A DNA stretch of 64,000 nt from Hoylesella nanceiensis DSM 19126 = JCM 15639 (GTDB taxonomy: Bacteria > Bacteroidota > Bacteroidia > Bacteroidales > Bacteroidaceae), in assembly GCF_000379965.1 (NCBI RefSeq), contig NZ_KB904328.1:1-64000 (forward strand). The letters are read 5' to 3'. Position numbers and translations under genes: made by a program. Of the stretch, positions 4,574 to 54,730 are shown piece after piece. The notes below the pieces were generated by a model. That model searched no databases and was not told where the DNA came from. It was given only the letters and a program-made list of their open reading frames with translations. Every line of letters starts with the position of its first letter. The first letter of the stretch is position 1.

Positions 4574-4661
4574 AAAAGCATAACTATTACCTATCAATAG
4601 CTATGCTTTTATGCTCTAATATCAATGCTTTTAGCCTGCAAAAGCATTGTGTTTATTGTTC
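4574..4661 (+). repeat. 22-bp-period palindromic repeat, copy A (4 units)
   Basis: Four units start at 4574, 4596, 4618 and 4640, each a 15-bp degenerate palindrome related to AAAAGCAWTGCTTTT plus a 7-bp spacer. Units 1 and 2 also pair with each other: AAAAGCATA-A-CTATT pairs AATAG-C-TATGCTTTT around a 7-base loop with one mismatch. Units 3 and 4 form a perfect 10-bp stem (4623-4632 / 4640-4649, 7-base loop). The copy ends two bases before the stop codon of the minus-strand EamA gene, so it could serve as that gene's transcription end. Confidence 0.85.
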
Positions 4662-4663
4662 AC

Positions 4664-5587
4664 TTAGGCTTCTTCTTCAATCCGTTTGTCTTGTTCTTGA
4701 GCCTTTTTATTCGACAACACCAAGAATATTACCGATGCAATAATCAACATTAAGCCTATTGCAATGGGCACTGTAAATGGCTCACTGAACACCAAAACAC
4801 CCACAAGCATGGCTGTAACAGGCTCGAATGCGCCCAAAATGGCTGCCATTGTGCTGCTCACTTTCTTTAAAGCCATAATCAAAGTGATATTACTTATCGC
4901 AGTGGGAACAAGTCCTAAGAGTGCCAAGTTGATAAATGCTGAGGTCGAAGGAATACCCTTTATGCCTCCAGTTGCAAAAAGAGAATAGAACGAAATAAGC
5001 AACATTGTAAAGAAGAACACATAGAAGGTGAGCTTGAGCGACGACATTTTACGTATGCGCATCACTGGAAGTATCACCATATAGGTGGCATATAAGAATC
5101 CAGAAAGCAACTCACACAATAGTCCTTTGTATGAAGCTTGAAAGTCTCCGTCTATCACTCCCGACAAAAGAACAACGCCTCCGATGGCTAAGAAGATTGA
5201 TAAAATAGCGCCAAGTTTGAGTCGTTCTTTAAAGAATATGCCCATAAGCAGAGCCGTCCATATTGGATATGAGAACAAAAGTGTGGTGGCAATACCACTC
5301 GACATATACTTATAACCCTCGATAAGCGCAATAGCCGACACGGCATAGAGCAACGAAATAAACATAATTCGAAAGGCATCACCTCGGTTTATGTGCATAG
5401 AACGTTTATTGGCAATGAGCACTAAGAGTATAATTACACCTGCAAAGGCAAAGCGATACACAAGAAGTGAAAGCGAATCAATTCCTTCGTTCAATACGGG
5501 AATACTGAATAAAGGGATAGTTCCGAATGCAATTGCTGAGATCGACGCCTCTACTAATCCTCTAATATTGTTATTGTTTAAAGCCAT
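4664..5587 (-). CDS. EamA/DMT-family transporter (first of a tandem pair)
   Basis: The 307-residue protein has ten predicted membrane helices arranged as two EamA repeats (about residues 10-145 and 155-295), the standard drug/metabolite transporter layout. Typical features are the Phe-Gly-Thr-Ile-Pro start, the Phe-Ser-Tyr-Pro-Ile-Trp-Thr motif in the first half and the Leu-Gly-Ala-Phe-Glu-Pro-Val motif in the second. Members export amino acids, metabolites or drugs; the substrate is unknown. It is closely similar to the next gene upstream (5637-6524) and 49 bases from it, so the pair probably arose by duplication and is co-transcribed. Confidence 0.9.
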   Translation of the reverse strand: MALNNNNIRGLVEASISAIAFGTIPLFSIPVLNEGIDSLSLLVYRFAFAGVIILLVLIANKRSMHINRGDAFRIMFISLLYAVSAIALIEGYKYMSSGIATTLLFSYPIWTALLMGIFFKERLKLGAILSIFLAIGGVVLLSGVIDGDFQASYKGLLCELLSGFLYATYMVILPVMRIRKMSSLKLTFYVFFFTMLLISFYSLFATGGIKGIPSTSAFINLALLGLVPTAISNITLIMALKKVSSTMAAILGAFEPVTAMLVGVLVFSEPFTVPIAIGLMLIIASVIFLVLSNKKAQEQDKRIEEEA

Positions 5588-5636
5588 ATCTTTAATATCT
5601 CGCTGTTTAGGGGGTATTATTAATATCGTAATTTGT

Positions 5637-6524
5637 TTAACTCTTACTCTTTCCTGCGCCCATTATCAATAGCGAAACGGATACAAGGGTAAGAATAAGA
5701 CCAAGGGTTGTGTATTGATTAAGAGTCTCTCCGAAAACCAATAGACCGATAATCAGTGCGGTGATGGGCTTAAATACTCCCAAAATAGCTGTTAATGTGC
5801 TGCTCACTTTCTTTAAAGCTACGATGAGAGCGATATTACTTATGGCTGTAGGAATGAGTCCTACGAGCACTAAGTTCAATGCTACACTCTTGTTGGCAAT
5901 AGGTGCAAGCTCGCCTTTGGTAATGAACGAGAAACCTAAGATCAACAACATCGTGAAAAGAAAGATATAGAATGTGAGTGCAAGCGATGGCATCTTCTTC
6001 ACTTCAAGACGTGGAAACACCACTAAATAGATGGCGTAGGTCAAGCCAGAAAGAAGCTCCCAAGCTACTCCAATATGCGAATTTTGTAGGTCTGAGCCCG
6101 TTATTCCCGACAAAAGAACAACGCCCACGATGGCCAACACGATTGAAGCGATGGTTTTAATGCCTAATCTTTCACGAAAGAAAACGGCCATTAACAAGGC
6201 TGTCCACACTGGATATGAGAACACAAGTGTGGTGGCAACGCCCGTAGGCATATAGTTATAACCTTCTATTAGCGACAAGGCTGAAACGGAATAGATGCAC
6301 GAGAGCAATAGAAGTTGCCCGATGTCTTTTAGCGAAACACGCAAAGACACTCTTTGAAAGAGGGCTAAAAGCAGGAGTGCTATGCCTCCAAAGAAAAAAC
6401 GATAAACGATAAGTGAGAGCGAATCCATACCACTTTTGAGCACAGGAAGACTGAAAAGGGCTATCGTTCCAAAGGTAATTGACGAAATTGCAGCGGCACT
6501 TAGGCCTTTTAAATTTGTATTCAT
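5637..6524 (-). CDS. EamA/DMT-family transporter (second of a tandem pair)
   Basis: This 295-residue, ten-helix EamA-repeat protein is a paralogue of the neighbouring 307-residue transporter. The two share long matched blocks, for example the segments around Phe-Gly-Thr-Ile-Ala-Leu-Phe-Ser and Val-Pro-Thr-Ala-Ile-Ser-Asn-Ile. In the second repeat Gly-Ala-Phe-Glu-Pro of the partner is Gly-Val-Phe-Lys-Pro here, a charge reversal at a usually conserved position that may signal different substrates. Inner-membrane exporter; substrate unknown. Confidence 0.9.
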   Translation of the reverse strand: MNTNLKGLSAAAISSITFGTIALFSLPVLKSGMDSLSLIVYRFFFGGIALLLLALFQRVSLRVSLKDIGQLLLLSCIYSVSALSLIEGYNYMPTGVATTLVFSYPVWTALLMAVFFRERLGIKTIASIVLAIVGVVLLSGITGSDLQNSHIGVAWELLSGLTYAIYLVVFPRLEVKKMPSLALTFYIFLFTMLLILGFSFITKGELAPIANKSVALNLVLVGLIPTAISNIALIVALKKVSSTLTAILGVFKPITALIIGLLVFGETLNQYTTLGLILTLVSVSLLIMGAGKSKS

Positions 6525-6584
6525 GAGGTATTATAAATTAATCATTTTCTGTAAATAGAATTGTTTTCTGGTTTAAGTGTCGAA

Positions 6585-7157
6585 CTATAATAGCATCATT
6601 CCAGCAAAGGCGGCATAGAGTATCATGTGAATGGGATTGATCTTGATAACCTTTGTGCCAACGAATGTGGCGATAAATAAGGCTATACTGATGCAGAATT
6701 GCCATCGACTTGCGCCAAATGAGCCGAAATTCTCGCTATTCATCAACATCAATGTCGCAGCAGCTAAGAGTCCAACAACAGCTGGTCGCAAACCTTCGAA
6801 CACGCTTTGCACCGCAGTTGTCTTCATATAACGCATAAACATCTTTGTAATTAGAATCATAAGAATAAACGTTGGCAACACTAATGCAAAGGTAGCGATG
6901 GCGCTTCCCAATACACTCATGCCCGTTCCGTAGCCCATTGAGTGCACAGCAGTGTAGCCACAATAGGTCGCAGTGTTTATTCCTATAGGCCCAGGTGTCA
7001 TCTGACTGATGGCAACAACATTGGTAAACTCTGCCGATGTCAACCAATGATGATTGCGAACTACCTCTGTTTGTATAAGAGATAGCATGCCATAGCCTCC
7101 TCCAAAGCCAAAAAGTCCAATCTCAAAGAATGTTACAAATAGCTGAAAAAATACCAT
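6585..7157 (-). CDS. CHR-family (chromate transporter-like) half protein, subunit 1
   Basis: At 190 residues this is a single CHR domain, half the length of classical ChrA. The N-terminal motif Phe-Gly-Phe-Gly-Gly-Gly-Tyr-Gly-Met (about residues 15-23) and the Gln-Met-Thr-Pro-Gly-Pro-Ile-Gly-Ile-Asn motif (about 51-60) are the family signatures. Short CHR proteins usually occur in pairs and work as heterodimers, and the partner lies at 7255-7791. The pair may export chromate or another oxyanion; the physiological substrate is not shown by sequence. Confidence 0.88.
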   Translation of the reverse strand: MVFFQLFVTFFEIGLFGFGGGYGMLSLIQTEVVRNHHWLTSAEFTNVVAISQMTPGPIGINTATYCGYTAVHSMGYGTGMSVLGSAIATFALVLPTFILMILITKMFMRYMKTTAVQSVFEGLRPAVVGLLAAATLMLMNSENFGSFGASRWQFCISIALFIATFVGTKVIKINPIHMILYAAFAGMMLL

Positions 7158-7254
7158 ATTTCAATATTTCTCGTATGTCTTTTACACCTTATTATATTAT
7201 AGGTGCATTGTTTGTCGAATGTTATTTTATTGCTGTTGCTTAGCTCTTGCGGGT

Positions 7255-7791: not shown

Positions 7792-7840
7792 TATATTTAT
7801 CTGCTTTAAGCTGTTTTTCTGTTGTATAGTTCATATATGG

Positions 7841-7891
7841 TTTGCACAAGAAAAGTCGCTAAAATGCTATTAACAACTCTCCTTGTGCAAA
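7841..7891 (-). terminator. Hairpin downstream of purL
   Basis: A perfect 10-bp stem (TTTGCACAAG / CTTGTGCAAA) with a 31-base loop begins ten bases past the purL stop codon. The loop is long and there is no good T-run, so a terminator role is tentative. Confidence 0.45.
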
Positions 7892-11916: not shown

Positions 11917-12004
11917 AAAAGCATTGTTTTTACATTGCAATATCAATGCTTTTAGGGTGCAATTACATTGCTTTTGGAGGGCAAAAGCAGTGAGTTTATT
12001 TTTC
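11917..12004 (+). repeat. 22-bp-period palindromic repeat, copy B (4 units)
   Basis: Units start at 11917, 11939, 11961 and 11983. Unit 2 carries the common AGGGTGC spacer. AAAAGCATTG (11917-11926) can pair with CAATGCTTTT (11944-11953). CATTGCTTTT (11966-11975) can pair with AAAAGCAGTG (11983-11992) with one wobble. This copy lies between two divergent promoters, so it cannot be a terminator for either neighbour's coding sequence. Confidence 0.85.
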
Positions 12005-12107
12005 GAGTGGAGACCTTTTGTTTTTAGAGGACATTGTAGAGGAGTTCGAAGGAGAGCAGATGTGCGCCTGACTTAAAGGCAAATAAAAAGTAAAAAGAAG
12101 AGAAAAT

Positions 12108-12166
12108 ACACCCATTTTACACAGCAAACCTACCCCTTTTTGATGAAAATCCGCCCCATTTTTCAC
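12108..12166. promoter_or_regulatory. Three phased direct repeats upstream of the SusC/SusD operon
   Basis: CCCATTTT at 12111, CCCTTTTT at 12134 and CCCATTTTT at 12155 form direct repeats spaced 23 and 21 bases, close to two helical turns. They lie about 130-185 bases ahead of the -7 box at 12297. The arrangement suits tandem binding of an activator; no regulator gene is adjacent. Site function is inferred only. Confidence 0.4.
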
Positions 12167-12273
12167 AATACATTATTTATACAAATTGCTCCCTTACATT
12201 CACTTAAACACCTGATTAGCAAATAGATAGTATTTCGTCGACTTTGTATTTCTTTATACATTAGTTGTTTTAC

Positions 12274-12304
12274 TTTATCTCTTTTCTCTTTTTATGTAAT
12301 TTTG
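12274..12304 (+). promoter_or_regulatory. Promoter of the first glycan-uptake operon
   Basis: TAATTTTG (12297-12304) matches TAnnTTTG. A TTTA (12274-12277) 19 bases upstream is a one-mismatch -33 element. It predicts a leader of about 40 bases before the start codon at 12350. Confidence 0.5.
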
Positions 12305-12349
12305 TAAAAAAAGAAAACCTAATTAGTTATTAACTTTAAAACACCGAAC

Positions 12350-12880
12350 ATGAGAAAGATTCATTTACAAATGGCGGGCTTAACATCAGCTTTAGTGGTG
12401 TCGTTCACCTCCTTGTTAAGTTCGTGTAACGTAACCGAAGACGGATCTTACGTTGCTCCTATCTCAATTAATGAAAAGATTCATGGCAAATGGTCGCTTC
12501 AATCATTAGACCAAACCGACGAAATCACCATGAAAAAGATGTCGCTCACCGACGCTCTTCAATTCAAAACGTTTGCCATTACGCTCAATGCTACGGCAGA
12601 AGGAACACCCTCTACCTTTACAATTGAAGGCGAAGCACCTTTGCTTTTGCCCACTTCTGGTACGTGGAAACTCGACTACGACTATTACAAATCTGATGGT
12701 TCATCGAGTCGTTTACTCTTAAATGACGGTCAAAAAAATCACGAAGTGATTGTAACTGCTATCCCTGGAAACGAAAAGACCTTAGCCTTTAAGCTCGTAA
12801 GAAAGCTTGCTGGTAAGCCTTTTGTATCGTACACCTACAATTTAACATCATCAACTAAAAGCGAGGAGGCACAACCATGA
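12350..12880 (+). CDS. Small lipocalin-like lipoprotein (DUF5004-like)
   Basis: The 176-residue protein has a lipoprotein signal ending Leu-Leu-Ser-Ser-Cys (Cys26), followed by acidic residues that could act as a surface-export signal. The body has the pattern Gly-Lys-Trp-Ser-Leu, then alternating beta strands with Gly-Thr-Trp-Lys-Leu, as in lipocalin-like DUF5004 proteins of Bacteroidetes glycan loci. The exact family is uncertain. It is the first gene of the operon and its stop overlaps the next start (ATGA), implying translational coupling. Probably an outer-membrane accessory protein for glycan uptake; no ligand can be inferred. Confidence 0.75.
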   Translation: MRKIHLQMAGLTSALVVSFTSLLSSCNVTEDGSYVAPISINEKIHGKWSLQSLDQTDEITMKKMSLTDALQFKTFAITLNATAEGTPSTFTIEGEAPLLLPTSGTWKLDYDYYKSDGSSSRLLLNDGQKNHEVIVTAIPGNEKTLAFKLVRKLAGKPFVSYTYNLTSSTKSEEAQP

Positions 12881-14088
12881 AAAGAAACTATATCATAATG
12901 CTCATGTCATTGTTGATGTTGAGCTTTGCAAATGTTGTGAAAGCTGAAGGCATTGAACTATCTAATGCGCCCAAAGTGTGGACGGTTCCTGCCGTGTTTA
13001 CTGCCGATCAAGAAGTTACTTTCTATTATGATGTAACCGATGTGGGCTTCCCTGCTGGGGTAGACTTATATCTTTGGGCATGGCAACCCACTGAACCTGA
13101 TGCTGGACATGGCGGTAATTCGTCTGATTTTGCTAAGCTCGAATACCTCGGAGACAATATTTATAAGATGACAATGACGCCTACTAAATATTTTAACTCA
13201 CCCGTTTCGGCTTTCGAAAACAGCGACTGGCCTGGCTTTTGGCAACGCCTTAAAACCAAAGATGGTGCCTATTGGAGTGGCGTTTATCAAGCTCCCGACT
13301 CGAGAAGTGAATGGAAGGCGTTTGCAGATAGTGGCGAACCCTATCAGGTTTTCAGCGGAAAGAAAACTAAAGCACTAACCAGTAAGTTCACATTAAACGA
13401 ACCTCTTACTATTGTGTTCAACCCTAATGTAATGAAAGTAAAGGGTCAAACCATGACCGATTTTGCTGCTAATACTCCTAACTTCCAAAGCTTCAACCTT
13501 CATTCTGGTATCGATAACTTCACCTATTTACAAGGTGTTAAGGTATGGATTCCTAAATGTATGGAGAAAACAGCTATTCAAAAGCTCAGCAATGGCTTTT
13601 ATTCTATCAGCATGACATCGCCCTTTGACTACTATAGTTGGAACTATGCCGACGACGGAAGCAAAGCGGTTTCGACCTTACAAACCGACACTGACATCGA
13701 AAACTTAGAGTGGTTGATGGTGGGTATCGCTAATAACGACTGGGCAGGAACAAGCTCTAACGTCGTATTTAAAGCTGGAACGGCTGCTCCTTATCCTGAT
13801 CCTACATTCTCTTTCTTCCCTTCTAAGATTAGTGCTAACGACATATTAACGCTCACTCGTCAATATAATGAACGCACAGCAGGCACCTTAAAATACACTA
13901 TCTCTACCGCTTCGCAAACCATTCAAGGCACTATGGAAGGCACAAGAGATAAAAGAGCGGCAACAATTAACTTGATGTCGATTCCCGAATTCAACAAAGC
14001 CACTGAAATACATGTCGTTATTAGTAAGGAAGACGGTCAACAAGTTGTTGACACTAAGATTCCTCTTGTGGTAGAAGACCAAAACTAA
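12877..14088 (+). CDS. Secreted glycan-locus accessory protein (possibly DUF4961-like)
   Basis: The 403-residue protein has a cleavable signal peptide (hydrophobic residues 5-20, cut after Val-Lys-Ala) and no lipobox. The rest is beta-rich with many aromatic residues, including a Trp-Ala-Trp-Gln-Pro segment near residue 67. Two similar halves seem present (about 25-190 and 200-400), each opening with a Tyr/Phe-rich strand. The setting between a lipoprotein and SusC suggests a periplasmic or surface glycan-binding role like SusE/SusF, although lipidation is missing. I recognise a resemblance to DUF4961-type proteins but cannot confirm it. Confidence 0.7.
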   Translation: MKRNYIIMLMSLLMLSFANVVKAEGIELSNAPKVWTVPAVFTADQEVTFYYDVTDVGFPAGVDLYLWAWQPTEPDAGHGGNSSDFAKLEYLGDNIYKMTMTPTKYFNSPVSAFENSDWPGFWQRLKTKDGAYWSGVYQAPDSRSEWKAFADSGEPYQVFSGKKTKALTSKFTLNEPLTIVFNPNVMKVKGQTMTDFAANTPNFQSFNLHSGIDNFTYLQGVKVWIPKCMEKTAIQKLSNGFYSISMTSPFDYYSWNYADDGSKAVSTLQTDTDIENLEWLMVGIANNDWAGTSSNVVFKAGTAAPYPDPTFSFFPSKISANDILTLTRQYNERTAGTLKYTISTASQTIQGTMEGTRDKRAATINLMSIPEFNKATEIHVVISKEDGQQVVDTKIPLVVEDQN

Positions 14089-14108
14089 ACCTATTAAAGC
14101 ATTACACT

Positions 14109-17042
14109 ATGAAACAAATTAAACAATCCTATATGGCACTGATTCTTATCAATGTGCTGTTGTTTTTAGGTAATATTCAAGCCATGGCACAATCGTTTCT
14201 TGCAACAGGAAAGGTGCTCGACGGCAACAATGAGCCTCTTGTGGGGGCTACTATCAAAGTAGTTGGAGCCTCAACAGGCACTATTACCAATGCTGATGGA
14301 CATTTCTCTATTCAATGTAACAATAATTCTACCTTAGAAATAAGCTATGTTAGCTATGTAACTCAACAGGTGAAGGCTGGCAAAAACATCACTGTTGTGT
14401 TGAAAGAAGACGCTAAGATGCTTCAAGAAACCGTGGTTGTAGGTGTGGGATACGGCACAATGCGCAAGTCAGACCTAACGGGTGCTATTGCATCTATCAA
14501 CGCAAAAGATTTAAAGAAGGGCGTTATCACCAGTACTGAGCAATTACTTCAAGGTAAAATTGCAGGTTTATCGGTGATGCAAAGCTCTGGAGCTCCTGAG
14601 GCAGGAGCAAGCATTCGCCTTCGTGGAGGTACGTCTTTATCTGCAGGAAACGGCCCTCTTTTCGTGGTAGATGGTATTCCTGGCGTGGATATTAACAGCG
14701 TTCAGCCTTCTGAAATCGTTAGTATGGACGTGTTGAAAGATGCTTCTGCAGCTGCTATATATGGTTCGAGAGGTGCGAATGGCGTTATTATCGTCACCAC
14801 TAATCGCCAAGGAAGCGATGTGGAACAAAAGACTTTGCAATATAATGGCTATGTGGCTATTGCCTCTGTAGCGAAGAATATGGACCTACTTTCGGCTAAT
14901 CAATGGCGCAGTTACGTTCGTGAAAGGGGCGTAAATGGAGCTTTAGACTTTGGACATGCTACCGATTGGCAAAAGGAACTCGAAAGAACTGCTATCTCAC
15001 ACTCACACAATATTCTCTTTGGAAGTAACAAAAAGGATAATGGTTATCGTGCTTCTGTAACCTATCAAAATAACCAAGGCGTGATAAAGAACAACACTAT
15101 GAATCGCCTTTCTGCAAGTCTTTCTGCCTATCAAAAGGCTTGGAACGGCAGACTTAGATTGGACGAAGGAGTGAATACCAATTTTGATAGCTGGCATCCA
15201 ATAGACGGTCGTATCTTTGAAAGAATGACAAACATTAATCCTACCTTTCCTATTTACAACCCAGATGGCAGCTATGCGCAGCTAAGTGGTACGAATACGG
15301 AGAATCCTATCGAGCTAAATAACAACCGAACTGCCGACCATAAGCGTCATAGACTATTGGGTTATCTTAAAGCTGAGCTTGAGATTATACCTGGATTGAC
15401 AACAACTATCAACACTTCTTATGAGTTTAACTCTGCAAAGAAGGGTCTTTATAAGCCTACATACGCAAAGATGGAGGGTCAAAGTGAAAAGGGTTGGGGT
15501 CAAAGAACCTATGAGGATTATACCAATAAGCAATTGGAATGGTACTTTACTTACGATAAAGACCTATCTAAAAACCATCACATAAACCTCATGGCGGGCT
15601 ATTCTTATCTCGATAACACATACGAAGGCTTTGGCTCAACACGCAGTGGTTTCGACACAAATGCATTCGGTTACAACAATTTAGCAGCGGGAACAGATTA
15701 TCGTCAGGGTGATGTTTACTCGTATAAGGGCAACGCTAAGCTCATATCTTTCTTCGGTAGAGCGAACTATAACATGATGGATAAATATCTTATCACTGCA
15801 ACTCTAAGACGAGATGGTAGCTCTCGCTTCGGAAAAGACCACAAATGGGGTACTTTCCCCTCTGTTTCTGTAGCGTGGAAGATAAGCAATGAGGCCTTTA
15901 TGAAGGGCACTCAAGAGTGGTTAGACTATCTAAAACTACGCATTGGATATGGTATTACGGGTAATCAAAACGGCATTGGAGACTACAAGTCGCTATCTAT
16001 TTTGAGCCCATCTGGTGCTGCTTACTACGATGCTACAACCAATTCGTGGAAGAATGCCTATGTACAAATACAAAATGCAAACCCTAACTTAAAATGGGAA
16101 GCTACTCAACAATTTAATATTGGTGTAGACTTTTCATTGTTTAACCGCCTCACTGGAACCATAGAAGTATATAATAAGAACACAAAAGACTTGCTTTGGA
16201 CTTATCCAGTGCCTCAACCTCCATACCTAGTTGGCACGATGTTGGCTAACGTTGGCAATCTAAAAAATACTGGAGTAGAGCTTACTTTGCACTCAAACAT
16301 CATTCGTTCTAAGGATTGGACCTTTGATGCTAACATGAGCTTTGCATACAATCACCAAAAGATTACAAAGCTATCAAATGACCTTTACAAAGCCGTTGGA
16401 CTTCAAGCAGGCTCTTTGCACGACCTAAGAGGTATGTCTAACATGTATTCTCAGGTAATAAAAGAGGGCTATGCAGCGGGTGCTTTCTGGGGACCTGTAT
16501 GCGAAGGAGTGGACGAAAACGGTAAGTATATCCTCAAAAAGGACGAGAATGGCAAGGTTGTTAATGAGTTCTTAGGTTCTGCTCAGCCCAAAGTGAACGT
16601 GGGATTGTCGCTTAATGCATCGTATAAGAATTTCGATTGCACCGTAGCAGGATATGGAATGTTTGGTCAAAAGGTGCTTAATGCTACCCGAATGGCTATG
16701 TTTGACCCCACAAGATTCCCCTCTCAGAACGTTCCCGACGACTTTATGACAAGCGGAATCACTGATAATCCAACCTTTTCGAGCTACTTTATCGAGAATG
16801 GAGCATTCTTCCGACTTCAATCTTTCACTTTAGGTTATTCGCTACCTTGCGCTAATAAGCTTGGATTATCACGCTTAAGAGTTTATTTCACCGCTGAGAA
16901 TCTCTTCTGTTTAACAGGCTATAAAGGCTTAGACCCTGAGGTTTCTATCCCCGATAATGTATTAGATTCTCCTGGAATAGAGAAGTTTAACGCTTATCCT
17001 CGCCCACGAACATTCTCTATTGGTTTAAATCTTGCATTCTAA
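14109..17042 (+). CDS. SusC/RagA-type TonB-dependent outer-membrane transporter
   Basis: The 977-residue transporter has a signal peptide (1-27), a carboxypeptidase-regulatory-like domain (about 30-110; Gly-Lys-Val-Leu-Asp-Gly start), the SusC TonB box region (Glu-Thr-Val-Val-Val-Gly-Val-Gly-Tyr-Gly, near 112), a plug domain with Asp-Val-Leu-Lys-Asp-Ala-Ser-Ala-Ala-Ala-Ile-Tyr-Gly, and a C-terminal beta barrel ending in aromatic Phe. With the next gene it should form the SusCD outer-membrane pump that imports oligosaccharides using TonB energy. The downstream GH97 suggests an alpha-glucan or alpha-galactoside substrate. It starts 20 bases after the previous gene. Confidence 0.95.
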   Translation: MKQIKQSYMALILINVLLFLGNIQAMAQSFLATGKVLDGNNEPLVGATIKVVGASTGTITNADGHFSIQCNNNSTLEISYVSYVTQQVKAGKNITVVLKEDAKMLQETVVVGVGYGTMRKSDLTGAIASINAKDLKKGVITSTEQLLQGKIAGLSVMQSSGAPEAGASIRLRGGTSLSAGNGPLFVVDGIPGVDINSVQPSEIVSMDVLKDASAAAIYGSRGANGVIIVTTNRQGSDVEQKTLQYNGYVAIASVAKNMDLLSANQWRSYVRERGVNGALDFGHATDWQKELERTAISHSHNILFGSNKKDNGYRASVTYQNNQGVIKNNTMNRLSASLSAYQKAWNGRLRLDEGVNTNFDSWHPIDGRIFERMTNINPTFPIYNPDGSYAQLSGTNTENPIELNNNRTADHKRHRLLGYLKAELEIIPGLTTTINTSYEFNSAKKGLYKPTYAKMEGQSEKGWGQRTYEDYTNKQLEWYFTYDKDLSKNHHINLMAGYSYLDNTYEGFGSTRSGFDTNAFGYNNLAAGTDYRQGDVYSYKGNAKLISFFGRANYNMMDKYLITATLRRDGSSRFGKDHKWGTFPSVSVAWKISNEAFMKGTQEWLDYLKLRIGYGITGNQNGIGDYKSLSILSPSGAAYYDATTNSWKNAYVQIQNANPNLKWEATQQFNIGVDFSLFNRLTGTIEVYNKNTKDLLWTYPVPQPPYLVGTMLANVGNLKNTGVELTLHSNIIRSKDWTFDANMSFAYNHQKITKLSNDLYKAVGLQAGSLHDLRGMSNMYSQVIKEGYAAGAFWGPVCEGVDENGKYILKKDENGKVVNEFLGSAQPKVNVGLSLNASYKNFDCTVAGYGMFGQKVLNATRMAMFDPTRFPSQNVPDDFMTSGITDNPTFSSYFIENGAFFRLQSFTLGYSLPCANKLGLSRLRVYFTAENLFCLTGYKGLDPEVSIPDNVLDSPGIEKFNAYPRPRTFSIGLNLAF

Positions 17043-17069
17043 TTCATCACTAAAAGAAAGAACACTATT

Positions 17070-18593
17070 ATGAAAAAACATTTGATATATTTATCGTTTG
17101 TCGGCCTGTTAGCATGCAATGCCTGCACAGACTTAAACGAAACGCTATACGATAAGGTGACAATGGACAGCTATGGCAAAAATAATTCGGAGGTACAAAC
17201 CATTGTTGGAGGCGCATATGCAACGCTTCGAGGCTATGGTGCCAATACTCCTGAAGGCAATAAGGTCAATTGTTTCCCCACATGTGAATATGTATTCTTC
17301 ACCGCCGCCTGCTCAAGTGATGAGGCATGTATCCCTACTCGTGGTACAGACTGGTACGATGGAGGTCGCTATCAGCAGCTACAATTCCACACATGGGACG
17401 CTAATAACACCGCTATTCTCTCGGTTTGGCGATACAATTTCACTGGAGTTTCGAAGATTAATGCCATTATTTATCAGGTTGAACAATCGTCTTTGACCGA
17501 CCAAGAGAAGAAAGTTGTAGAGGCAGAGTTGCGTGGTTTGCGTGCTTACTACTATTATAATCTACTCGATAACTTTGGAAATGTGCCCATAAGTACAAGC
17601 TTTACCGAGAAAGAATTGCCTAAAAACGCTTCGAAAGAACAGGTGTTTGACTTTATAGAAAAGGAGATTAAAGACATTCTTCCACTCCTTCCTTCTGGCG
17701 TTCAATATGGTCGTTTCACTCAAAATGTGGCTTATACGCTTCTTGCTCGTTTGTATCTCAATGCCGAAAGCCTTATAGGTACAGCGCATTGGCAAGACTG
17801 CTTAGATGCATGTGATAAGATATCGGGTTACAGACTCACTGCCGATTACAAGGAAAGCTTTAAGATTAAGAATGAAACTTCACCCGAAATCATCTTCGCA
17901 ATACCCTATGATCACAAGCAAGGAACAAGTGGTAACTATCTAGCTTCAATGAGTTATCATTACAATCAGAAGTATGTTTTCTCTCCAGAAGGCTCTTGGC
18001 AGTGGTCAGGAAACGGCATTTGCGCTCAACCTGGCTTGTATTCTTCATTCGAAGAGAAAGATGTTCGTCGTGCATCACTGCTCATTGGCCAGCAATATAG
18101 TGCCAAAGACGGATCTGAAGTGTTGATGGATAATGGCGAACCACTTAACTATACTGAAGAAATTAAGAAGTATACAGATGCGCTTCAGAATGAAGGTGCA
18201 AGACTAAATAAATACGAATGGAGCCCAACTGATATGTGGGAACGTGATAACGACTGGGTTTTGATGCGCTATGCCGAAGTTCTTATGATGCAAAGTGAGG
18301 CTAGTTTCCGCCTAGGATACACTCAAACGGCTTTAGATTACATCAATCAGGTGCGCAAAAGAGCTGCTCTCGATCCATTAACAACGCTTTCTCTCGAGGC
18401 ACTTGACAACGAATGGAAACACGAGTTTGTGTTCGAAGGCTTGCGAAGAACCACTAACATTAGATTTGGAACATTCTTTAAAACATGGTGGAACAAAGAG
18501 GCTGACCCCGCAGACATGCACACTCGCTTCTTCCCCATACCCAAAGAAGAGTTGGATAAGAACCCCAATTTGGTGCAAAACACAGGTTATTAG
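17070..18593 (+). CDS. SusD/RagB-type glycan-binding lipoprotein
   Basis: The 507-residue surface lipoprotein caps the SusC channel. The signal contains two candidate lipidated cysteines (Cys16 after Leu-Leu-Ala, Cys19 after Asn-Ala); Cys16 fits the lipobox slightly better. The N-terminal TPR-like part (about 25-250) has Leu-Arg-Ala-Tyr-Tyr-Tyr-Tyr-Asn-Leu and Gly-Asn-Val-Pro motifs typical of SusD. The C-terminal half contains Met-Arg-Tyr-Ala-Glu-Val-Leu-Met-Met and the closing Phe-Phe-Pro-Ile-Pro block. It starts 27 bases after susC, in the same operon. Confidence 0.94.
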   Translation: MKKHLIYLSFVGLLACNACTDLNETLYDKVTMDSYGKNNSEVQTIVGGAYATLRGYGANTPEGNKVNCFPTCEYVFFTAACSSDEACIPTRGTDWYDGGRYQQLQFHTWDANNTAILSVWRYNFTGVSKINAIIYQVEQSSLTDQEKKVVEAELRGLRAYYYYNLLDNFGNVPISTSFTEKELPKNASKEQVFDFIEKEIKDILPLLPSGVQYGRFTQNVAYTLLARLYLNAESLIGTAHWQDCLDACDKISGYRLTADYKESFKIKNETSPEIIFAIPYDHKQGTSGNYLASMSYHYNQKYVFSPEGSWQWSGNGICAQPGLYSSFEEKDVRRASLLIGQQYSAKDGSEVLMDNGEPLNYTEEIKKYTDALQNEGARLNKYEWSPTDMWERDNDWVLMRYAEVLMMQSEASFRLGYTQTALDYINQVRKRAALDPLTTLSLEALDNEWKHEFVFEGLRRTTNIRFGTFFKTWWNKEADPADMHTRFFPIPKEELDKNPNLVQNTGY

Positions 18594-18935
18594 AAGTGGA
18601 ATGTTGGCTTTCTGCAACACGAAAAGCAACTAAAAAGATGTATTTTTTACATTATTTCCACAATAAAGAACGTTTTTAAACGTAAAATAAGCGTAAGGTT
18701 AGGTGCAGACAATGGGTTCTGCACCTCCTTAGCGTTATATAAAACGACCCACTTTTGCCTCTCTTCATCTGCTAACCCCTTATTAAATAAGGGACAAGCA
18801 AGATGAAACAAGGATTTAAAAGCACCTCAAGCGAGGCAAAATAGGTTGAAAAGAAAGAACAAGATAACCGCATCATATCGCATTATTACAGGGAGAATAT
18901 AATTAAAAAGAAATAAAAACAACAGGTATTATAGT
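18594..18935. other. Intergenic region with a GC-rich hairpin between SusD and GH97
   Basis: The 342 bases contain a hairpin at 18693-18732: AGGTGCAGA (18701-18709) pairs TCTGCACCT (18718-18726), and after a two-base bulge TAAGG/CCTTA extends it. There is no T-run, so it may be an RNA stabiliser or attenuator rather than a terminator. No promoter box was recognised ahead of the GH97 gene and no small ORF is convincing. Confidence 0.5.
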
Positions 18936-20957
18936 ATGATGAATAAAAACAAAATTACTCTATTGCTTTGTATCTGCGCAATGAGTTTAAGCTATTTAAG
19001 TGCGTTTGCCACCTCAAAAGTAACGTCGCCCAATGGTCGTTTGTCGCTTTTAACGGGTGTAGACGCATCTGGTAAGCCCTATTTTGAATTGCTCAGAGAC
19101 AACAAAAGCGTTATTAAAAAGTCGTATTTAGGCGTTTCTCTAAAAGATGGACAATTGTCTGAAGACTTTAAAGTTACCAAAACATCTCGCAATCAGCTTG
19201 ATGAAACATGGCAACAACCATTGGGAGAAGAGCTAAACATACGTAATCACTACAACGAACTCACCCTTCATCTTCAGCAAAAGAAAGACAAGAAAAGAAT
19301 GATGAACATTGTTTTCCGCCTTTTTAACGATGGAATGGGTTTTAGATATGTATTCCCTAAGCAAGCAAATCTCAATCAGTTTACCATTATCGACGAGAAA
19401 ACGGCTCTCACTTTGCCTTGGGACGCCTCTGCATGGACCATCCCTACCGAAGGAACTCACTACTATGAGGGTCTTTGGACCAAAGCTCCTATAAGCGAAA
19501 AGCCAACCGTTTCGACCCCAATAACAATGGAAGTGAACGACAGTTTATATCTTGTTTTTCACGAAGCCAATCTAACTGATTATGCAACGCTGAACTATCA
19601 CCCTCAAAAAGATCAAAACGGACAAGTTGTTTTGTCGTCTGAACTCACCCCATGGAGCAATGGTGACAAGGTATATGCAGCCACTCCGTTTGTTAGTCCA
19701 TGGCGAACTGTCATCGTAGGAAGCACCATTGCCGACATCACTGCATCTCGCTTAATGCTCAATCTCAATGAGCCTTGCAAGATTAAAGATACTTCTTGGA
19801 TCGAAGATGGTAAGTATATAGGTATCTGGTGGGCCATTCATATGGGCGATTACACATGGAGTCAAGGTGAAAAACACGGTGCAACAACAGCCAATACCAA
19901 GCGTTATATCGACTTTGCAGCGAAGAATGGCTTTAAAGGTGTATTGGTAGAAGGTTGGAATTGGGGCTGGGATGGCAACTGGGGAGTCGAAGGTGACAAG
20001 TTTAACTTTACCAAAGCGTACCCCGATTACGACTTAGATAGCTTGCAGCACTATGCTCTTTCGAAGGGAGTACGCCTCATTGCGCACAACGAAACAGGTG
20101 GATCTGCCAAGAATTACGAGCAACAACTCGATTCAGCTTTTGCCCTTTACCAACGCTTAGGCATACGAACTGTGAAAACAGGATATGTAAACGACAAGAT
20201 GGATAATCTTGAATTACAACACAGTCAATATGGTGTTCGCCACTATCGCAAGGTTATTGAAACTGCAGCTAAATACCAAATAATGATAGTTAACCACGAA
20301 CCTGCCATGCCAACAGGCTTAAATAGAACCTATCCCAACCTTATTTCGGGTGAAGGAGTACGTGGACAAGAGTATAATGCGTGGTCGCAAGATGGCGGAA
20401 ACCCACCCTATCACTTGTGTATTGTGCCCTTTACACGTCAGTTAGCGGGTGCAATCGACTACACACCAGGTATCTTTAACTTCGAAAATAAAGCCGTTCC
20501 ACAAAGTCACCCACAAACAACTATCGCTAAACAGTTGGCTTCTTACGTGGTGATTTATAGTCCTTGGCAAATGGCTGCCGACAAAATAGAGAACTATGAG
20601 GCACATCCTGCCCTCTCATTCATACAAAGAGTGCCCACAAACTGGCAAGAATCACGAGTGTTAAATGCCGAATTGGGTAAATATGTCACCATTGCTCGCA
20701 AGGAAAGAAACAGCAACAACTGGTATATTGGTGGTTTAACCGACCAAGACCCACGCACACTTACCCTTCATTTCGACTTCTTAGATAACGATGCTCAATA
20801 CGAAGCACTTATCTATAGCGATGGAGAAGGTGCCGACTATCGCACTAATCCTTATCCACTTGCAATCACTCAAAAACGTATTCGCAAAGGCGATAGCTTG
20901 CAATTGAAGCTTGCTCCAAGTGGAGGATTTGCCATAGAGCTAAAGAAAATCAACTAA
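18936..20957 (+). CDS. GH97 glycoside hydrolase (SusB-like alpha-glucosidase)
   Basis: The 673-residue protein has a signal peptide (about 1-26) and the three GH97 parts: an N-terminal beta-sandwich (27-280), a TIM barrel (about 290-570) with the Gly-Trp-Asn-Trp-Gly-Trp-Asp motif, and a C-terminal beta domain. Candidate calcium and catalytic glutamates are Glu386 (His-Asn-Glu-Thr), Glu455 (Asn-His-Glu-Pro), Glu473 and Glu479. Thr-Gly-Tyr-Val (415-418) replaces the Val-Asp-Phe carrying the nucleophile Asp of retaining GH97 galactosidases. It is therefore probably an inverting alpha-glucosidase like SusB, acting in the periplasm on imported alpha-glucan fragments. Confidence 0.92.
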   Translation: MMNKNKITLLLCICAMSLSYLSAFATSKVTSPNGRLSLLTGVDASGKPYFELLRDNKSVIKKSYLGVSLKDGQLSEDFKVTKTSRNQLDETWQQPLGEELNIRNHYNELTLHLQQKKDKKRMMNIVFRLFNDGMGFRYVFPKQANLNQFTIIDEKTALTLPWDASAWTIPTEGTHYYEGLWTKAPISEKPTVSTPITMEVNDSLYLVFHEANLTDYATLNYHPQKDQNGQVVLSSELTPWSNGDKVYAATPFVSPWRTVIVGSTIADITASRLMLNLNEPCKIKDTSWIEDGKYIGIWWAIHMGDYTWSQGEKHGATTANTKRYIDFAAKNGFKGVLVEGWNWGWDGNWGVEGDKFNFTKAYPDYDLDSLQHYALSKGVRLIAHNETGGSAKNYEQQLDSAFALYQRLGIRTVKTGYVNDKMDNLELQHSQYGVRHYRKVIETAAKYQIMIVNHEPAMPTGLNRTYPNLISGEGVRGQEYNAWSQDGGNPPYHLCIVPFTRQLAGAIDYTPGIFNFENKAVPQSHPQTTIAKQLASYVVIYSPWQMAADKIENYEAHPALSFIQRVPTNWQESRVLNAELGKYVTIARKERNSNNWYIGGLTDQDPRTLTLHFDFLDNDAQYEALIYSDGEGADYRTNPYPLAITQKRIRKGDSLQLKLAPSGGFAIELKKIN

Positions 20958-21022
20958 AATGTGGTGCTGTTCGGCACTATTAAAAGCCCAAAAGCAAATT
21001 ATTTTATTGGGAATAAGAATTG

Positions 21023-21051
21023 AAAAGAGCCTCAACTGGGGCTCTTTTTTT
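21023..21051 (+). terminator. Intrinsic terminator of the first glycan-uptake locus
   Basis: AAAAGAGCC (21023-21031) pairs GGCTCTTTT (21040-21048) around an 8-base loop and runs into TTTTTTTT. It starts 65 bases after the GH97 stop and ends the plus-strand block. Confidence 0.92.
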
Positions 21052-21230
21052 ATTGTCTATGATAGAAGTTAGAACGAAAAAGTAGAGCAACACGCCTCCT
21101 CCACCCTACTTTTAAGAGCGGATTTTATCCTTTTCACCTCCTCATTCTTACACTATAAGCAAGAAGAACATTTCAGTTCGAGTGAGAGTTGTAATGAGCT
21201 GGTAATCAAAGTAAATAAAAGAAGCCTTGA

Positions 21231-21318
21231 AAAAGCATTGTTTTTATGTTGCAATAGCTATGCTTTTAGGGTGCAATTGCATTGAGATTAGAGTGTAAAA
21301 GCATTGAGATGGTTTAGC
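21231..21318 (+). repeat. 22-bp-period palindromic repeat, copy C (4 units)
   Basis: Units start at 21231, 21253, 21275 and 21297; unit 2 is followed by the AGGGTGC spacer. It is very similar to copy E over its first 76 bases. The spacer of unit 4 contains the stop codon of the minus-strand Crp/Fnr gene (21314-21316), so the repeat abuts the end of that coding sequence, as copy A does for its neighbour. Confidence 0.85.
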
Positions 21319-28291: not shown

Positions 28292-28884
28292 CAGTTAATA
28301 AGAGTAAGTTCTGCCTTGAAAGGTAAGAACTCGTATGTCCTTCCTCCACGCTTTATTTTCTCTTCAATTTCAAAAGCATTGCTATCACCATCAAAAAGCA
28401 CTCTTTTTAGGGTCAAAAAGCATTGCTTTTTCGATGTAATTACAGTGCTTTTATTTGGCAATAGAATTTCTTTATTATCTGCAGGGGTTAGCTTAAAGGT
28501 GAGAGATAGTCGTTCATTGTTGATTTGAACGAATTGTTCTGGAACATTTTTAAAGGTAATTTCGTTTTCAGAAGCATTGTATTCGTAGAGCAATCCACGC
28601 AAAGGAATACGTCGAAAGCTCGCTACACTACCTTCGTTCATGGGCAAAGTGAGTTCGGGTTTCGAAAAGTTTGCCACCTCATTGTTGATATCAAACCACA
28701 AATAAGAATGATTACTGTTGATGATAAAGATGCGAGATAGCAGACGATCGTTATCCCCTACGAGCGGAATAGATTCGCTTTTAGTGTATTCTTCATTGCT
28801 ATCAAATTCTCGATTGATGCAACTGCACAAGACAATCAACATACAAAAGAATAGGCAATGTTTTGGTTTTACAAAGCAAGTCAT
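28291..28884 (-). CDS. Small lipoprotein carrying an internal repeat copy
   Basis: The 197-residue protein has a lipoprotein signal with Cys20 and Cys22 (Leu-Cys-Ser-Cys-Ile) and then an acidic tract (Asp-Ser-Asn-Glu-Glu). The rest is beta-rich; no family is recognised. Residues about 142-171 are encoded by repeat copy D, on the antisense reading of the repeat, without breaking the frame. Its stop overlaps the next gene's start by one base (TGATG), and it begins two bases after the previous stop, so it is tightly coupled to the TonB-dependent receptor. Confidence 0.8.
   Translation of the reverse strand: MTCFVKPKHCLFFCMLIVLCSCINREFDSNEEYTKSESIPLVGDNDRLLSRIFIINSNHSYLWFDINNEVANFSKPELTLPMNEGSVASFRRIPLRGLLYEYNASENEITFKNVPEQFVQINNERLSLTFKLTPADNKEILLPNKSTVITSKKQCFLTLKRVLFDGDSNAFEIEEKIKRGGRTYEFLPFKAELTLIN
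28372..28459 (+). repeat. 22-bp-period palindromic repeat, copy D (4 units, inside a coding sequence)
   Basis: Units start at 28372, 28394, 28416 and 28438. Unit 3 is the perfect core AAAAGCATTGCTTTT and unit 2 has an AGGGTCA spacer. It aligns without gaps to the intergenic copies. The second half of unit 3/4 is close to copy B (AATTACAGTGCTTTT versus AATTACATTGCTTTT). It lies in the coding sequence at 28291-28884 and leaves the frame open. Confidence 0.75.
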
Positions 28885-30662: not shown

Positions 30663-31274
30663 TCACTCCTTAGTGCCTTGCCATTGCATCTTCATTGCAA
30701 CGGGTAACATAAGATCTATGAGGGCAGAAACTTCGTTTTTAGAACGCAAGAAATATCCTTCTAGCTCTGCATCGTCGCTCTCTGGCAATTCAAGTCCAAT
30801 CTGTTTGCCTTCGTCCGACGTACGAACTATGCCGTCACGACCTTGCAATCGAATGGTATCTCCTACTCCTTCAGATAATAATACGTCCATTTCTACACTC
30901 ACATAAAGCGGCATAAAGTTGGTATGAAACTTACTTATGCTGAGGTGTAACGATCCATTTGCATTGGTGGTGCAATGCACTTGATGTTTACCTGCAGTGA
31001 AATAAAGAAGCGGTTTGATGCGTTCGGCATCATAATAAATCATGGATAACTTCGAAGAGTAATGTCCTTCGATGGCTTTTGCTAACGCTTGAGTGCCTAA
31101 GTCGTCGTCGACATACTCTTTTTTGTTAGGCAATAGCTCTTTTGAACGTGCGTAATCGTCTGATAAAAACGATTCTTTTTCACACGACATCAATAGCAAC
31201 ACCAAGCCAATAAAAATGCTTTTTGCTACTAATTGCCATGAGATTACTGCCTTAAAAACGTTATTTTTTATCAT
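30663..31274 (-). CDS. Small lipoprotein (DUF4840-like)
   Basis: The 203-residue protein has a long signal ending Leu-Leu-Met-Ser-Cys (Cys31) and an acidic/charged tail (Glu-Lys-Glu-Ser, then Ser-Asp-Asp). The beta-rich body includes an Ile-Glu-Gly-His-Tyr-Ser-Ser-Lys segment (near 69) that suggests a DUF4840-type small-barrel protein, though I cannot confirm the family. It starts 21 bases after the methyltransferase, so co-transcription is likely. Confidence 0.75.
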   Translation of the reverse strand: MIKNNVFKAVISWQLVAKSIFIGLVLLLMSCEKESFLSDDYARSKELLPNKKEYVDDDLGTQALAKAIEGHYSSKLSMIYYDAERIKPLLYFTAGKHQVHCTTNANGSLHLSISKFHTNFMPLYVSVEMDVLLSEGVGDTIRLQGRDGIVRTSDEGKQIGLELPESDDAELEGYFLRSKNEVSALIDLMLPVAMKMQWQGTKE

Positions 31275-34572: not shown

Positions 34573-34660
34573 AAAAGCATTGCTTTTATATTGCAATAGC
34601 TATGATTTTAGGGTGCAATTGCATTGAGATTAGAGTGCAAAAGCAATGATATTATTTTGC
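34573..34660 (+). repeat. 22-bp-period palindromic repeat, copy E (4 units)
   Basis: Units start at 34573, 34595, 34617 and 34639. Unit 1 is the perfect 15-bp palindrome AAAAGCATTGCTTTT and unit 2 is followed by AGGGTGC. The first 76 bases are about 90 percent identical to copy C by eye. It lies between an upstream terminator and the downstream operon promoter. Confidence 0.88.
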
Positions 34661-39261: not shown

Positions 39262-39371
39262 GCTCTGCAATAACATTGAGTTAGTATTGCAAAAGCATTG
39301 AGTTTGAAGCGTAAAAGAAGTGCTTTTGCACCCTAAAAGCATTGCTATTGAAAACGAACTGCTATTAAGTT
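39262..39371 (-). repeat. 22-bp-period palindromic repeat, copy F (5 units, inverted)
   Basis: Read on the minus strand, units start at 39371, 39349, 39327, 39305 and 39283. Unit 2 is AATAGCAATGCTTTT followed by AGGGTGC; units 3 and 4 are AAAAGCACTTCTTTT and AAACTCAATGCTTTT. Unit 1 is weak. A fifth unit, TAACTCAATGTTATT, keeps the 22-base register. It lies between the helicase gene and the CBM9-like gene and is the only inverted and only five-unit copy found. Confidence 0.75.
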
Positions 39372-46582: not shown

Positions 46583-46670
46583 AAAAGCTATGTTTTTACG
46601 CTGCAATAGCTATGTTTTTACCTTACAAACTCATTGCTTTTACAACTTAAAAACAATGCTTTCCCCATCC
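46583..46670 (+). repeat. 22-bp-period palindromic repeat, copy G (4 units)
   Basis: Units start at 46583, 46605, 46627 and 46649 (AAAAGCTATGTTTTT, AATAGCTATGTTTTT, AAACTCATTGCTTTT, AAAAACAATGCTTTC). It is more diverged than copies B, C and E but aligns in the same register without gaps. Like copy B it lies between divergent genes. Confidence 0.75.
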
Positions 46671-52907: not shown

Positions 52908-52950
52908 AGAGCAAAAAAAATGAAAATCAATATATAACAAACAAAACATT

Positions 52951-54597
52951 ATGGCAACAACTCCTGAATTTAAGTATGCCCCTATGTTCCAAACAGGGGA
53001 AGACAAAACAGAGTACTATCTACTCACAAAAGAAGGCGTTTCAACAAGCGAATTCGAAGGAAAAACTATCTTAAAGGTTAGCAAAGAAGCTCTTACTCAA
53101 CTCACTAACACAGCGTTCAGAGATGTCAATTTCTTATTAAGACGTTCTCACAATGAGCAAGTTGCAAAGATACTTTCAGACCCCGAAGCAAGCGATAACG
53201 ACCGTTATGTGGCACTAACATTCCTTCGTAACGCTGAAGTTGCATGCAAAGGCGTTCTTCCTTTCTGTCAAGATACAGGTACAGCAATCATACATGGAGA
53301 GAAAGGTCAACGTGTTTGGACCGACTTTTGCGATGAAGAAGCTCTTTCATTAGGCGTTTATAAGACCTACACAGAAGAGAACTTACGTTACTCTCAAAAT
53401 GCTCCTTTGAACATGTATGATGAAGTTAATACTCGTTGTAACCTACCTGCGCAAATCGATATCGAAGCAACTGAGGGCGATGAGTATAAGTTCTTGTGCG
53501 TAGTTAAAGGTGGTGGATCGGCTAATAAGACCTATTTCTACCAAGAAACCAAAGCTATTCTTAACAAAGAGACCCTTGTTCCTTTCCTATTAGAAAAGAT
53601 GAAGACTCTTGGAACCGCTGCTTGTCCTCCTTATCACATCGCATTTGTTATTGGAGGAACTAGCGCAGAGAAGAACCTTTTAACTGTAAAACTTGCTTCA
53701 ACTCGTTTCTATGACGGTCTACCTACAACAGGAGACGAAACCGGAAGAGCCTTTAGAGATGTGCAATTAGAACAAGAATTGCTCGAAGCATCACACAAAA
53801 TCGGCCTAGGAGCACAGTTCGGAGGTAAATATTTCGCACATGATATTCGTGTAGTACGCCTTCCTCGCCACGGAGCATCATGCCCTGTGGGTCTTGGAGT
53901 GAGCTGTTCTGCAGACAGAAACATCAAAGCTAAGATCAACAAAGACGGTATTTGGATTGAAAAGCTTGACGATCAACCAGGCAACCTCATTCCAGAAGAA
54001 TTGAGAAACGCAGGAGAAGGCAATTCAGTTAAGATCGACTTGAACCTTCCAATGGACGAGATCAGAAAAGAACTTACCAAATATCCTGTTTCAACTCGTT
54101 TGAGCTTGAATGGTACTATCATCGTAGCTCGTGACATTGCACACGCTAAGTTGAAAGAAAGATTAGACAGAGGCGAAGGCTTACCCGATTACTTTAAGAA
54201 CCATCCTGTGCTTTATGCAGGTCCAGCAAAGACTCCTCAAGGTCTTCCTTGCGGTTCAATGGGACCAACAACTGCCAACCGTATGGACACATACGTTGAC
54301 CTATTCCAACAAAATGGCGGTTCAATGGTGATGATTGCAAAGGGTAACAGAACTCAAATGGTTACCGATGCATGTAAGAAGAACGGTGGTTTCTACCTCG
54401 GAAGTATCGGTGGTCCAGCTGCAGTTCTATCAATGAACAGCATCAAGAGCATTGAATGTGTAGAATATCCAGAGCTTGGAATGGAAGCAGTTTGGAAGAT
54501 TGAAGTAGAGAATTTCCCTGCATTTATCCTTGTAGACGATAAGGGTAACGACTTCTTTAAGCAACTTCCTGCAGGCACAGTGAACTGTAAAAAATAA
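52951..54597 (+). CDS. Fumarate hydratase, class I (iron-sulfur type)
   Basis: The 548-residue single-chain enzyme interconverts fumarate and malate using an oxygen-sensitive [4Fe-4S] cluster. Predicted cluster cysteines are Cys106 (Leu-Pro-Phe-Cys-Gln-Asp-Thr-Gly), Cys225 (Ala-Ala-Cys-Pro-Pro) and Cys319 (Val-Ser-Cys-Ser-Ala), matching E. coli FumA Cys105/224/318. Alpha-type (about 1-340) and beta-type (about 350-540) domains are fused as in FumA/FumB. It fits the succinate-producing fumarate pathway of anaerobic Bacteroidetes. It may share the upstream operon's transcript. Repeat copy H follows it. Confidence 0.97.
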
Positions 54598-54642
54598 CAA
54601 TCGCAGAAACATCACGTTTCGATAACGATTATATCTAAAATT

Positions 54643-54730
54643 AAAAGCATAACTATTTGCTCGTAATAGTTATGCTTTTTCTATGTAATCTCAATGCTTT
54701 TAGATTGCAATTGCATTGAGTTGAGCAAGC
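54643..54730 (+). repeat. 22-bp-period palindromic repeat, copy H (4 units), terminator-like
   Basis: Units start at 54643, 54665, 54687 and 54709. Units 1 and 2 form a perfect 15-bp stem (54643-54657 with 54665-54679, 7-base loop TGCTCGT) ending in TTTTT, an intrinsic-terminator shape 45 bases after the fumarase stop. Copy A has the same fold with one mismatch, so A and H form a subfamily. Confidence 0.88.

Follow-up and report, generated by a model that had tools for sequence, protein, structure and literature searches.

The window analysed here is the first 64,000 nucleotides of contig NZ_KB904328.1 from Hoylesella nanceiensis DSM 19126 = JCM 15639 (C2:1-64000 in the 2.65-Mb genome G000), a stretch that carries transport, purine synthesis, glycoside hydrolase, Crp-like, GTPase and fumarase genes and, between or within its open reading frames (ORFs), eight copies of a dispersed repeat. 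Each copy is an array, by which we mean a run of 15-bp near-palindromic units and 7-bp spacers with a period of 22 bp; in G000 the unit is AAAAGCAWTGCTTTT followed by 7 bp. These copies had been described from the sequence of the window alone (the original prediction), and all eight lie where it had placed them, can be aligned gaplessly and stay in 22-bp phase (Table 1). The copy said to have five units (39262-39371) has four in phase, at 39269-39349; the next in-phase place scores -4.0, and a motif-like site at 39352 sits 17 bp on, not 22. Here we report the abundance of the arrays in the genome, their distribution and conservation among relatives, and the explanations that these patterns favour.

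Table 1. Arrays of the window and the segment that separates two of them, in window coordinates; G268 is the closest relative of the window's genome.
Feature	Coordinates	Strand	Surroundings and state in G268
Four-unit array	4574..4654	+	EamA-type transporter gene, stop codon about 10 bp away; G268 has an array at the orthologous place
Four-unit array	11917..11997	+	Divergent region between purL-like and DUF5004 genes; left edge of a 9.2-kb segment without G268 counterpart
9.2-kb segment between two arrays	12005..21230		DUF5004, GH97 and other genes; one array instead in G268
Four-unit array	21231..21311	+	Between convergent GH97 and Crp-like genes; right edge of the 9.2-kb segment
Four-unit array	28372..28452	+	Within the 3' part of a 197-aa ORF (28291-28884, minus strand); identical in G268
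Four-unit array	34573..34653	+	G268 counterpart interrupted behind its first spacer by an insert of 14.2 kb that resembles a mobilizable transposon
Four-unit array	39269..39349	-	Claimed fifth unit out of phase
Four-unit array	46583..46663	+	Between divergent GH20 and GTPase (domains resemble HflX) genes; G268 keeps the units despite diverged flanks
Four-unit array	54643..54723	+	About 45 bp past the stop codon of fumarase; no copy in G268, the alignment stopping at the array

The arrays are abundant in G000. The pattern AAAAGCATTGCTTTTA, with at most one mismatch, has 183 matches in the whole genome and 0 when the pattern is read backwards. A 464-kb sample, composed of the window and 20 evenly spaced 20-kb stretches (400 kb), holds 52 period-22 arrays with at least two units, compared with 0 in its reversed sequence and 0 at periods of 18-21 and 23-26 bp. 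Counts in the genome are thus far above the controls and the 22-bp period is preserved, so that the two outcomes named beforehand as refuting the original prediction did not occur in this genome. From 52 arrays in 464 kb, approximately 300 arrays per genome can be extrapolated; a sequence model built from 28 copies gave at least 164 strand matches in G000, with 150 of 3,419 candidates scored. Strong units numbered four in 32 of the sampled arrays, three in 12 and two in eight, and a weak fourth unit is visible in many of the two- and three-unit arrays. Over all G000 DNA examined, a four-unit span is the mode (97 of 132 arrays), so that the fixed unit number claimed earlier holds as the usual state and not as a rule, given the arrays of three and two units and one six-unit run (L097:14358).

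The similarity between units was analyzed in 119 of the 132 arrays, leaving out spans of five or six units, a weak match at window position 31165, and two- or three-unit arrays without a plausible fourth unit. Units 1 to 4 share a similar consensus, and units 2 and 3 of one copy are slightly more alike than expected by chance (z 3.3). The heptamer AGGGTGC said to follow unit 2 proved to be a tendency only, AGGG occurring in 20 of 119 middle spacers vs 24 of 238 outer spacers (p = 0.087), and a special central spacer was rejected as not significant. The unit has the form AAAA-core(7)-TTTT, and the 7-bp spacer after it mostly has a purine as its first letter and a pyrimidine as its last, so that A/T-tracts return every 11 bp across the 81 bp of the array.

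A direct comparison was made with G268, which, by fumarase (99% identical), is the closest relative of G000 among 398 genomes of the genus. In 560 kb of compared G268 DNA, 43 G000 arrays have any match and 20 can be aligned through; the letter-by-letter comparison rests on these 20, the weak 31165 match included, and the G268 copies were taken without selection for motif match. No indels occur in 1,510 bp of array sequence vs 22 in 4,600 bp of flanks. Identity reaches 97-99% at unit positions 1, 2, 6, 10, 14 and 15 and is 71-76% in the inner five spacer letters, the means being 88% in arrays and 86% in flanks. That these two close species keep both the motif letters and the phase is read as a probable sign of selection, and the position pattern together with the absence of indels is the strongest evidence that the arrays may function as sequence-specific, phase-dependent sites.

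Beyond this species pair, the sequence model matches 16 of 40 genomes: its own, 14 congeneric ones and a single genome from outside the genus. A generic three-unit frame (AAAA-N7-TTTT-N7, at most three mismatches) has more than 100 matches in 12 of 150 genus genomes, own included, led by G017 of Prevotella falsenii (597), G100 (575), G006 (376), G094 (327) and G000 (302); these are counts of three-unit windows and not of arrays, so one array may score twice. Another 20 of the 150 genomes have none and many have few, possibly by chance, and the example loci L170, L171 and L177 resemble chance matches in AT-rich DNA. A 24-bp control frame is found in 21 of the 150 genomes and never exceeds 4 matches. 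With a stricter frame, matches occur in 8 of 151 genomes and 4 of 30 genera of a family sample (three other genera with one genome each and 1-2 matches), where the reversed control has two genomes with 2 matches apiece. In a class sample of 295 genomes, the stricter frame matches 2, both from the same genus as the window. A strict two-unit pattern search in named genomes gave no match.

The relatives have in common the period, approximately four units, the A/T-tracts, and the purine and pyrimidine edges of the spacers, and the 7-bp core is species-specific: AAAAGCAWTGCTTTT in G000 and G268, AAAACCTACGCTTTT and AAAAGCGGCTGTTTT in G017 and G100, AAAAGGTYATCTTTT in G010, and AAAAGTGSCACTTTT in G518. 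In six genomes, the first spacer letter is a purine in 80-100% of cases and the last a pyrimidine in 90-100%, the loci of the relatives being partly picked by the model. When units are called by the A/T frame letters only, in arrays with at least three units, four is the mode in G000 (23 of 38), G268 (55 of 75), G017 (5 of 7) and G010 (5 of 8), and four-unit arrays make up 2 of 4 in G012 and 1 of 2 in G006. By eye, G008 has a 21-bp period in locus L066 and mixed 21/22-bp periods in L082.

Most arrays of G000 are intergenic. The 52 sampled arrays comprise 42 in intergenic regions, six in called ORFs (one of them, at 39291, a doubtful ORF) and four that were left unclassed. Among the intergenic arrays, 24 lie in tandem, 14 in convergent and four in divergent regions, which total 33.9, 9.1 and 10.2 kb, respectively; judged by counts relative to intergenic length, the arrays seem to favour convergent regions and to avoid divergent ones. 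Many arrays stand behind stop codons, at a median distance of 137 bp. No clear shared sequence appeared within 45 bp on either side of the array in the 119 copies, and a k-mer search within 300 bp of G000 arrays returned only weak or A/T-rich words; AA/TT continues weakly in array phase into the flanks. A leader-like motif similar to TTGATTATCAA is present in 23 of 238 60-bp array flanks vs 288 of 6660 background pieces, an approximately two-fold excess that possibly reflects intergenic composition, and similar motifs precede arrays in some relatives. Within the window, the 197-aa ORF at 28291-28884 has no Pfam match and holds a complete array. Another ORF without Pfam match (30663-31274, minus strand) contains, at 31209-31245, two weak in-phase units, AATAAAAATGCTTTT and AATTGCCATGAGATT, which are perhaps a decayed array.

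These patterns suggest that the arrays may be sets of four phased sites for an inferred, probably dimeric DNA-binding protein, a reading to which we assign a probability of roughly 0.45. Each array would be a compact docking platform, usually offering four sites in the same helical phase, and a sequence-specific, probably dimeric protein would occupy every near-palindromic unit. With four of them side by side on one face of the DNA, a single complex of fixed size could form, perhaps bending the DNA, with a putative role in chromosome architecture or insulation. Some bending is predicted from the sequence itself: a wedge model gives a mean bend of approximately 65 degrees vs 36-37 for shuffled or rephased arrays, and a simple A-tract model clearly shows the bend when 10.5 or 11 bp per turn are assumed. 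Of the two proposals in the original prediction, tandem sites for a dimeric protein are the better supported, because phase and symmetric letters are kept while spacers drift and signs of RNA-type covariation are few, although no protein was found.

Several observations weigh against protein-binding sites. No binding protein turned up, and no systematic partner search was made. In 6 of the 20 aligned arrays, G000 and G268 are less alike over the array as a whole than in the flanks, and in 3 more the two identities are equal. The bend of the A-tract model is absent at 10.0 bp per turn (19 vs 22 for shuffled sequences) and is therefore dependent on the helical repeat. Fast change of the core fits one conserved protein poorly unless the protein is co-evolving or shape-reading, and some cores are not palindromic, such as AAAAGCGGCTGTTTT in P. 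falsenii. Generic matches are few or absent in many members of the genus, so that a function would not be essential genus-wide. Finally, the array of P. falsenii lies in a mobile element, and its spread could be explained without a host function.

A broader formulation, which we put forward tentatively and at lower confidence than the binding sites themselves, would combine a grammar that stays fixed (a period of 22 bp, mostly four units, 11-bp A/T-tracts and spacer edges) with a free 7-bp species core, read by a dedicated, fast-evolving protein that builds fixed-size complexes at approximately 300 places per genome, the arrays being re-spread in some lineages by IS982-type miniature transposons. 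The readings considered here are not mutually exclusive.

The other half of the original prediction, a small mobile element, fits what is seen in P. falsenii. Arrays of the G017 type match exactly at 10 loci in P. falsenii and 2 in P. aurantiaca records. One P. falsenii copy is an insertion of approximately 455 bp with a 7-bp duplication, GTTTTTA, against an empty orthologous site in G100, an observation that is new here. In full-length copies from P. falsenii, P. aurantiaca and G100, the ends resemble ACGTGARTTCGGYATAAG, stand in inverted order approximately 455 bp apart and lie outside the conserved block; only one distinct locus shows the strict pattern in full on either side, the other ends being degenerate. 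Duplications were scored in 17 of 20 copies, a set from these three sources that contains two ortholog pairs and leaves out one duplicate locus and two copies with unclear left ends; the flanks match at 6 or 7 of 7 positions in 10 of the 17 vs 4.5% of 268 cross pairs. Other copies of the P. falsenii type align over the middle 200-240 bp only. In G100, such ends, with one letter changed, also form ten pairs approximately 1,025 bp apart, and the 1,025-bp insertion sequence (IS) between them codes for a transposase of the IS982 family (NCBIfam NF033520, E 4.9e-84). The P. falsenii element therefore fits an IS982-type miniature inverted-repeat transposable element (MITE) in its inverted ends, its target duplication and its matching IS, found in G100. 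The same inverted ends also occur in G100 at a MITE-sized distance of approximately 239 bp, for example at C1:905951-906189. A second repeat of approximately 200 bp in P. falsenii (L153:19508-19707) is 96-99% identical at many places of the genome.

It is conceivable, though somewhat doubtful, that the arrays are purely selfish, that is, that each is the segment of a non-autonomous MITE-like repeat to which a recombinase or transposase binds, with the enzyme supplied in trans and no host function. The P. falsenii insertion and the IS of G100 argue for this, as does an IS982 relative in G000 itself (C7:118233-119135, 52% identity, one internal stop), IS982-like genes or fragments being present in both G000 and G268. 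Against it, the IS982-type ends occur 0 times genome-wide in G000 and in G268, on which ground an IS982-type MITE was rejected for the arrays of the window; a shorter end pattern has 1 match in 238 G000 array flanks and 2 in 464 kb. The G000 copies have no shared flanks, yet their motif letters are conserved in place, and no array lies within approximately 1.5 kb of the near-intact IS982 copies examined. Nor was a clean insertion seen in G000, though the copy at 54643 is absent in G268. The history of a mobile element explains the spread in one clade, not the conservation in the lineage of the window. Remnants of IS982 transposase genes lie approximately 100-220 bp from an array in L127 (G000), L270 (G268), L169 (G010) and L063 (G001), and approximately 400 bp from one in L274; one G000 array is among the loci examined.

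The P. falsenii block also links the arrays to a described repeat. The PINSR of P. intermedia, as described by Naito et al. (2015, PMC4755523), is a 188-bp intergenic repeat present in 177-184 copies, a number that also agrees with selfish spread; it is without coding capacity or terminal inverted repeats and was linked to rearrangements, and polymerase chain reaction (PCR) was positive in P. nigrescens, P. falsenii and P. disiens and negative in other clades. The P. falsenii array block is very probably PINSR, likened by description and not by consensus sequence: both are intergenic, high-copy, noncoding and rearrangement-linked, P. falsenii is PCR-positive, and its conserved block measures by eye approximately 188-190 bp, with the four units mid-block (20 copies). 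The two differ in that PINSR is not known to be built of 22-bp units, whereas four-unit arrays are found here genus-wide, and in that the P. falsenii copies lie here inside longer elements with inverted ends approximately 455 bp apart. Moreover, P. aurantiaca, which holds 2 of our 12 exact-match loci, was in the PCR panel of the paper and is not named among the positives in its description, and the G000 copies are conserved over the array only, with no 188-bp repeat among the 119 copies. The earlier statement that no named family has this form was thus partly wrong in overlooking PINSR, very probably the relative in the P. intermedia group, although PINSR is not known for 22-bp units.

Other named repeats fit less well. 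The BrickBuilt MITE of Porphyromonas gingivalis likewise contains tandem units of nearly equal length, 23 nt, inside a MITE; its unit, AGAYCATARTATCCTCTCRTRTG, has no AAAA...TTTT frame, its unit number is reported to vary (0 to 18), and there are 19 elements (PMC4596501). Membership was rejected on the 23-nt AGAYCATARTATCCTCTCRTRTG vs AAAAGCAWTGCTTTT plus 7 bp and a period of 22 here. Repetitive extragenic palindromic (REP) sequences and bacterial interspersed mosaic elements (BIMEs), associated with RAYT transposases, are similar as they are generally known and described (PMC2817692, PMC8266576), consisting of hundreds of species-specific imperfect, intergenic palindromes in small arrays; they differ in that the present arrays keep a fixed phase and usually four units. 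The RAYT-type Y1 transposase (PF01797) has 0 matches in G000 and was found in 5 of 14 control genomes, on which ground REP with RAYT was rejected for G000, and the main text of a REP survey (PMC12306157) does not mention Prevotella. Searches of an open-access library brought up no account of 22-bp units for Prevotella; this does not prove that there is none.

A role as recombination sites, at which a site-specific or homologous process would swap or delete gene modules, is compatible with protein-binding sites and, taken as an explanation of its own, unlikely. Arrays coincide with some synteny breaks. In seven contiguous pieces, 7 of 22 G000-G268 breakpoints, representing approximately six events, are within 10 bp of an array; the two breakpoints in L100 mean little, as L100 lies mostly outside the compared G268 DNA, and some breakpoints fall at the edge of that DNA. 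Breaks affect 9 of 19 array-bearing intergenic regions vs 5 of 39 others, but array-bearing regions are also longer (median 440 bp vs 131 bp), and among regions of at least 200 bp the contrast is only 9 of 16 vs 3 of 11. Two events illustrate the pattern: the 9.2 kb between the arrays at 11917 and 21231 is replaced in G268 by a single array, and the 14.2-kb insert of G268 (L242:917-15155), which splits the counterpart of the 34573 array in a spacer, is flanked by direct copies of TTACATTGC and encodes two tyrosine integrases, VapE-like, Toprim and DUF3408 proteins, a relaxase and a TonB-receptor plug protein. Rearrangements between PINSRs were likewise reported by Naito et al. (PMC4755523). 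Recombination is, however, possible for any dispersed repeat and does not alone explain four units, and rearrangement at arrays may follow merely from their repeat nature and from mobile elements that target them.

Distinctly unlikely is that the arrays serve DNA gyrase, or some other topoisomerase, as strong wrapping sites read through phased bending, in the manner of BIME-2 or the strong gyrase site of Mu. The 11-bp A/T-tracts, with the weaker phase beyond the 81 bp, would suit such a role, as would the 14 convergent arrays among the 42 classified vs approximately 7 expected from intergenic length and the description of the Escherichia coli gyrase motif, whose arms are 10.75-bp periodic and perhaps read indirectly (PMC6379681). 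That motif, approximately 130 bp long, is described as having an aperiodic centre (-16 to +19) between two 47-bp arms (PMC6379681); the arrays are continuous, with a middle spacer that is not significantly distinct, and a gyrase strong site was set apart by this motif description. Gyrase would, in addition, need neither four units nor species-specific 7-bp cores. Curved bacterial DNA with periodic A-tracts is similar in having A/T-tracts at a phase of approximately 11 bp (PMC3940949), and the present arrays add to this the usual unit number, the species-specific cores and the dispersed copies.

An RNA element, in which transcript hairpins would act as terminator, attenuator or stabiliser of the mRNA 3' end, is highly unlikely: the palindromic units, the position of many arrays behind stop codons and the folding z-scores (averaging -5.1 over 17 of 20 P. 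falsenii copies and -2.5 over 60 of the 119 G000 copies) speak for it, but unit pairs show no clear compensatory covariation (one of six at p = 0.03 in the same P. falsenii copies, none of three in 14 three-unit stretches of G010), reverse-complement pairing between G000 units is not in excess (119 copies), Rfam has no match in the window, and arrays occur also in divergent regions and ORFs and keep a strict DNA helical phase. Little covariation and the lack of an Rfam match also weaken RNA structure as the main constraint.

For the genus, these results very probably turn PINSR, a Prevotella repeat described from one clade, into one case of a family that spans the genus and follows a precise internal plan. 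The four-site array, used as bait together with a rephased control, offers a direct handle on the DNA-binding partner. Should that partner prove architectural, it would count as a nucleoid factor for which hundreds of sites are predicted; should it act in recombination, part of the genome rearrangement in Prevotella would be accounted for.

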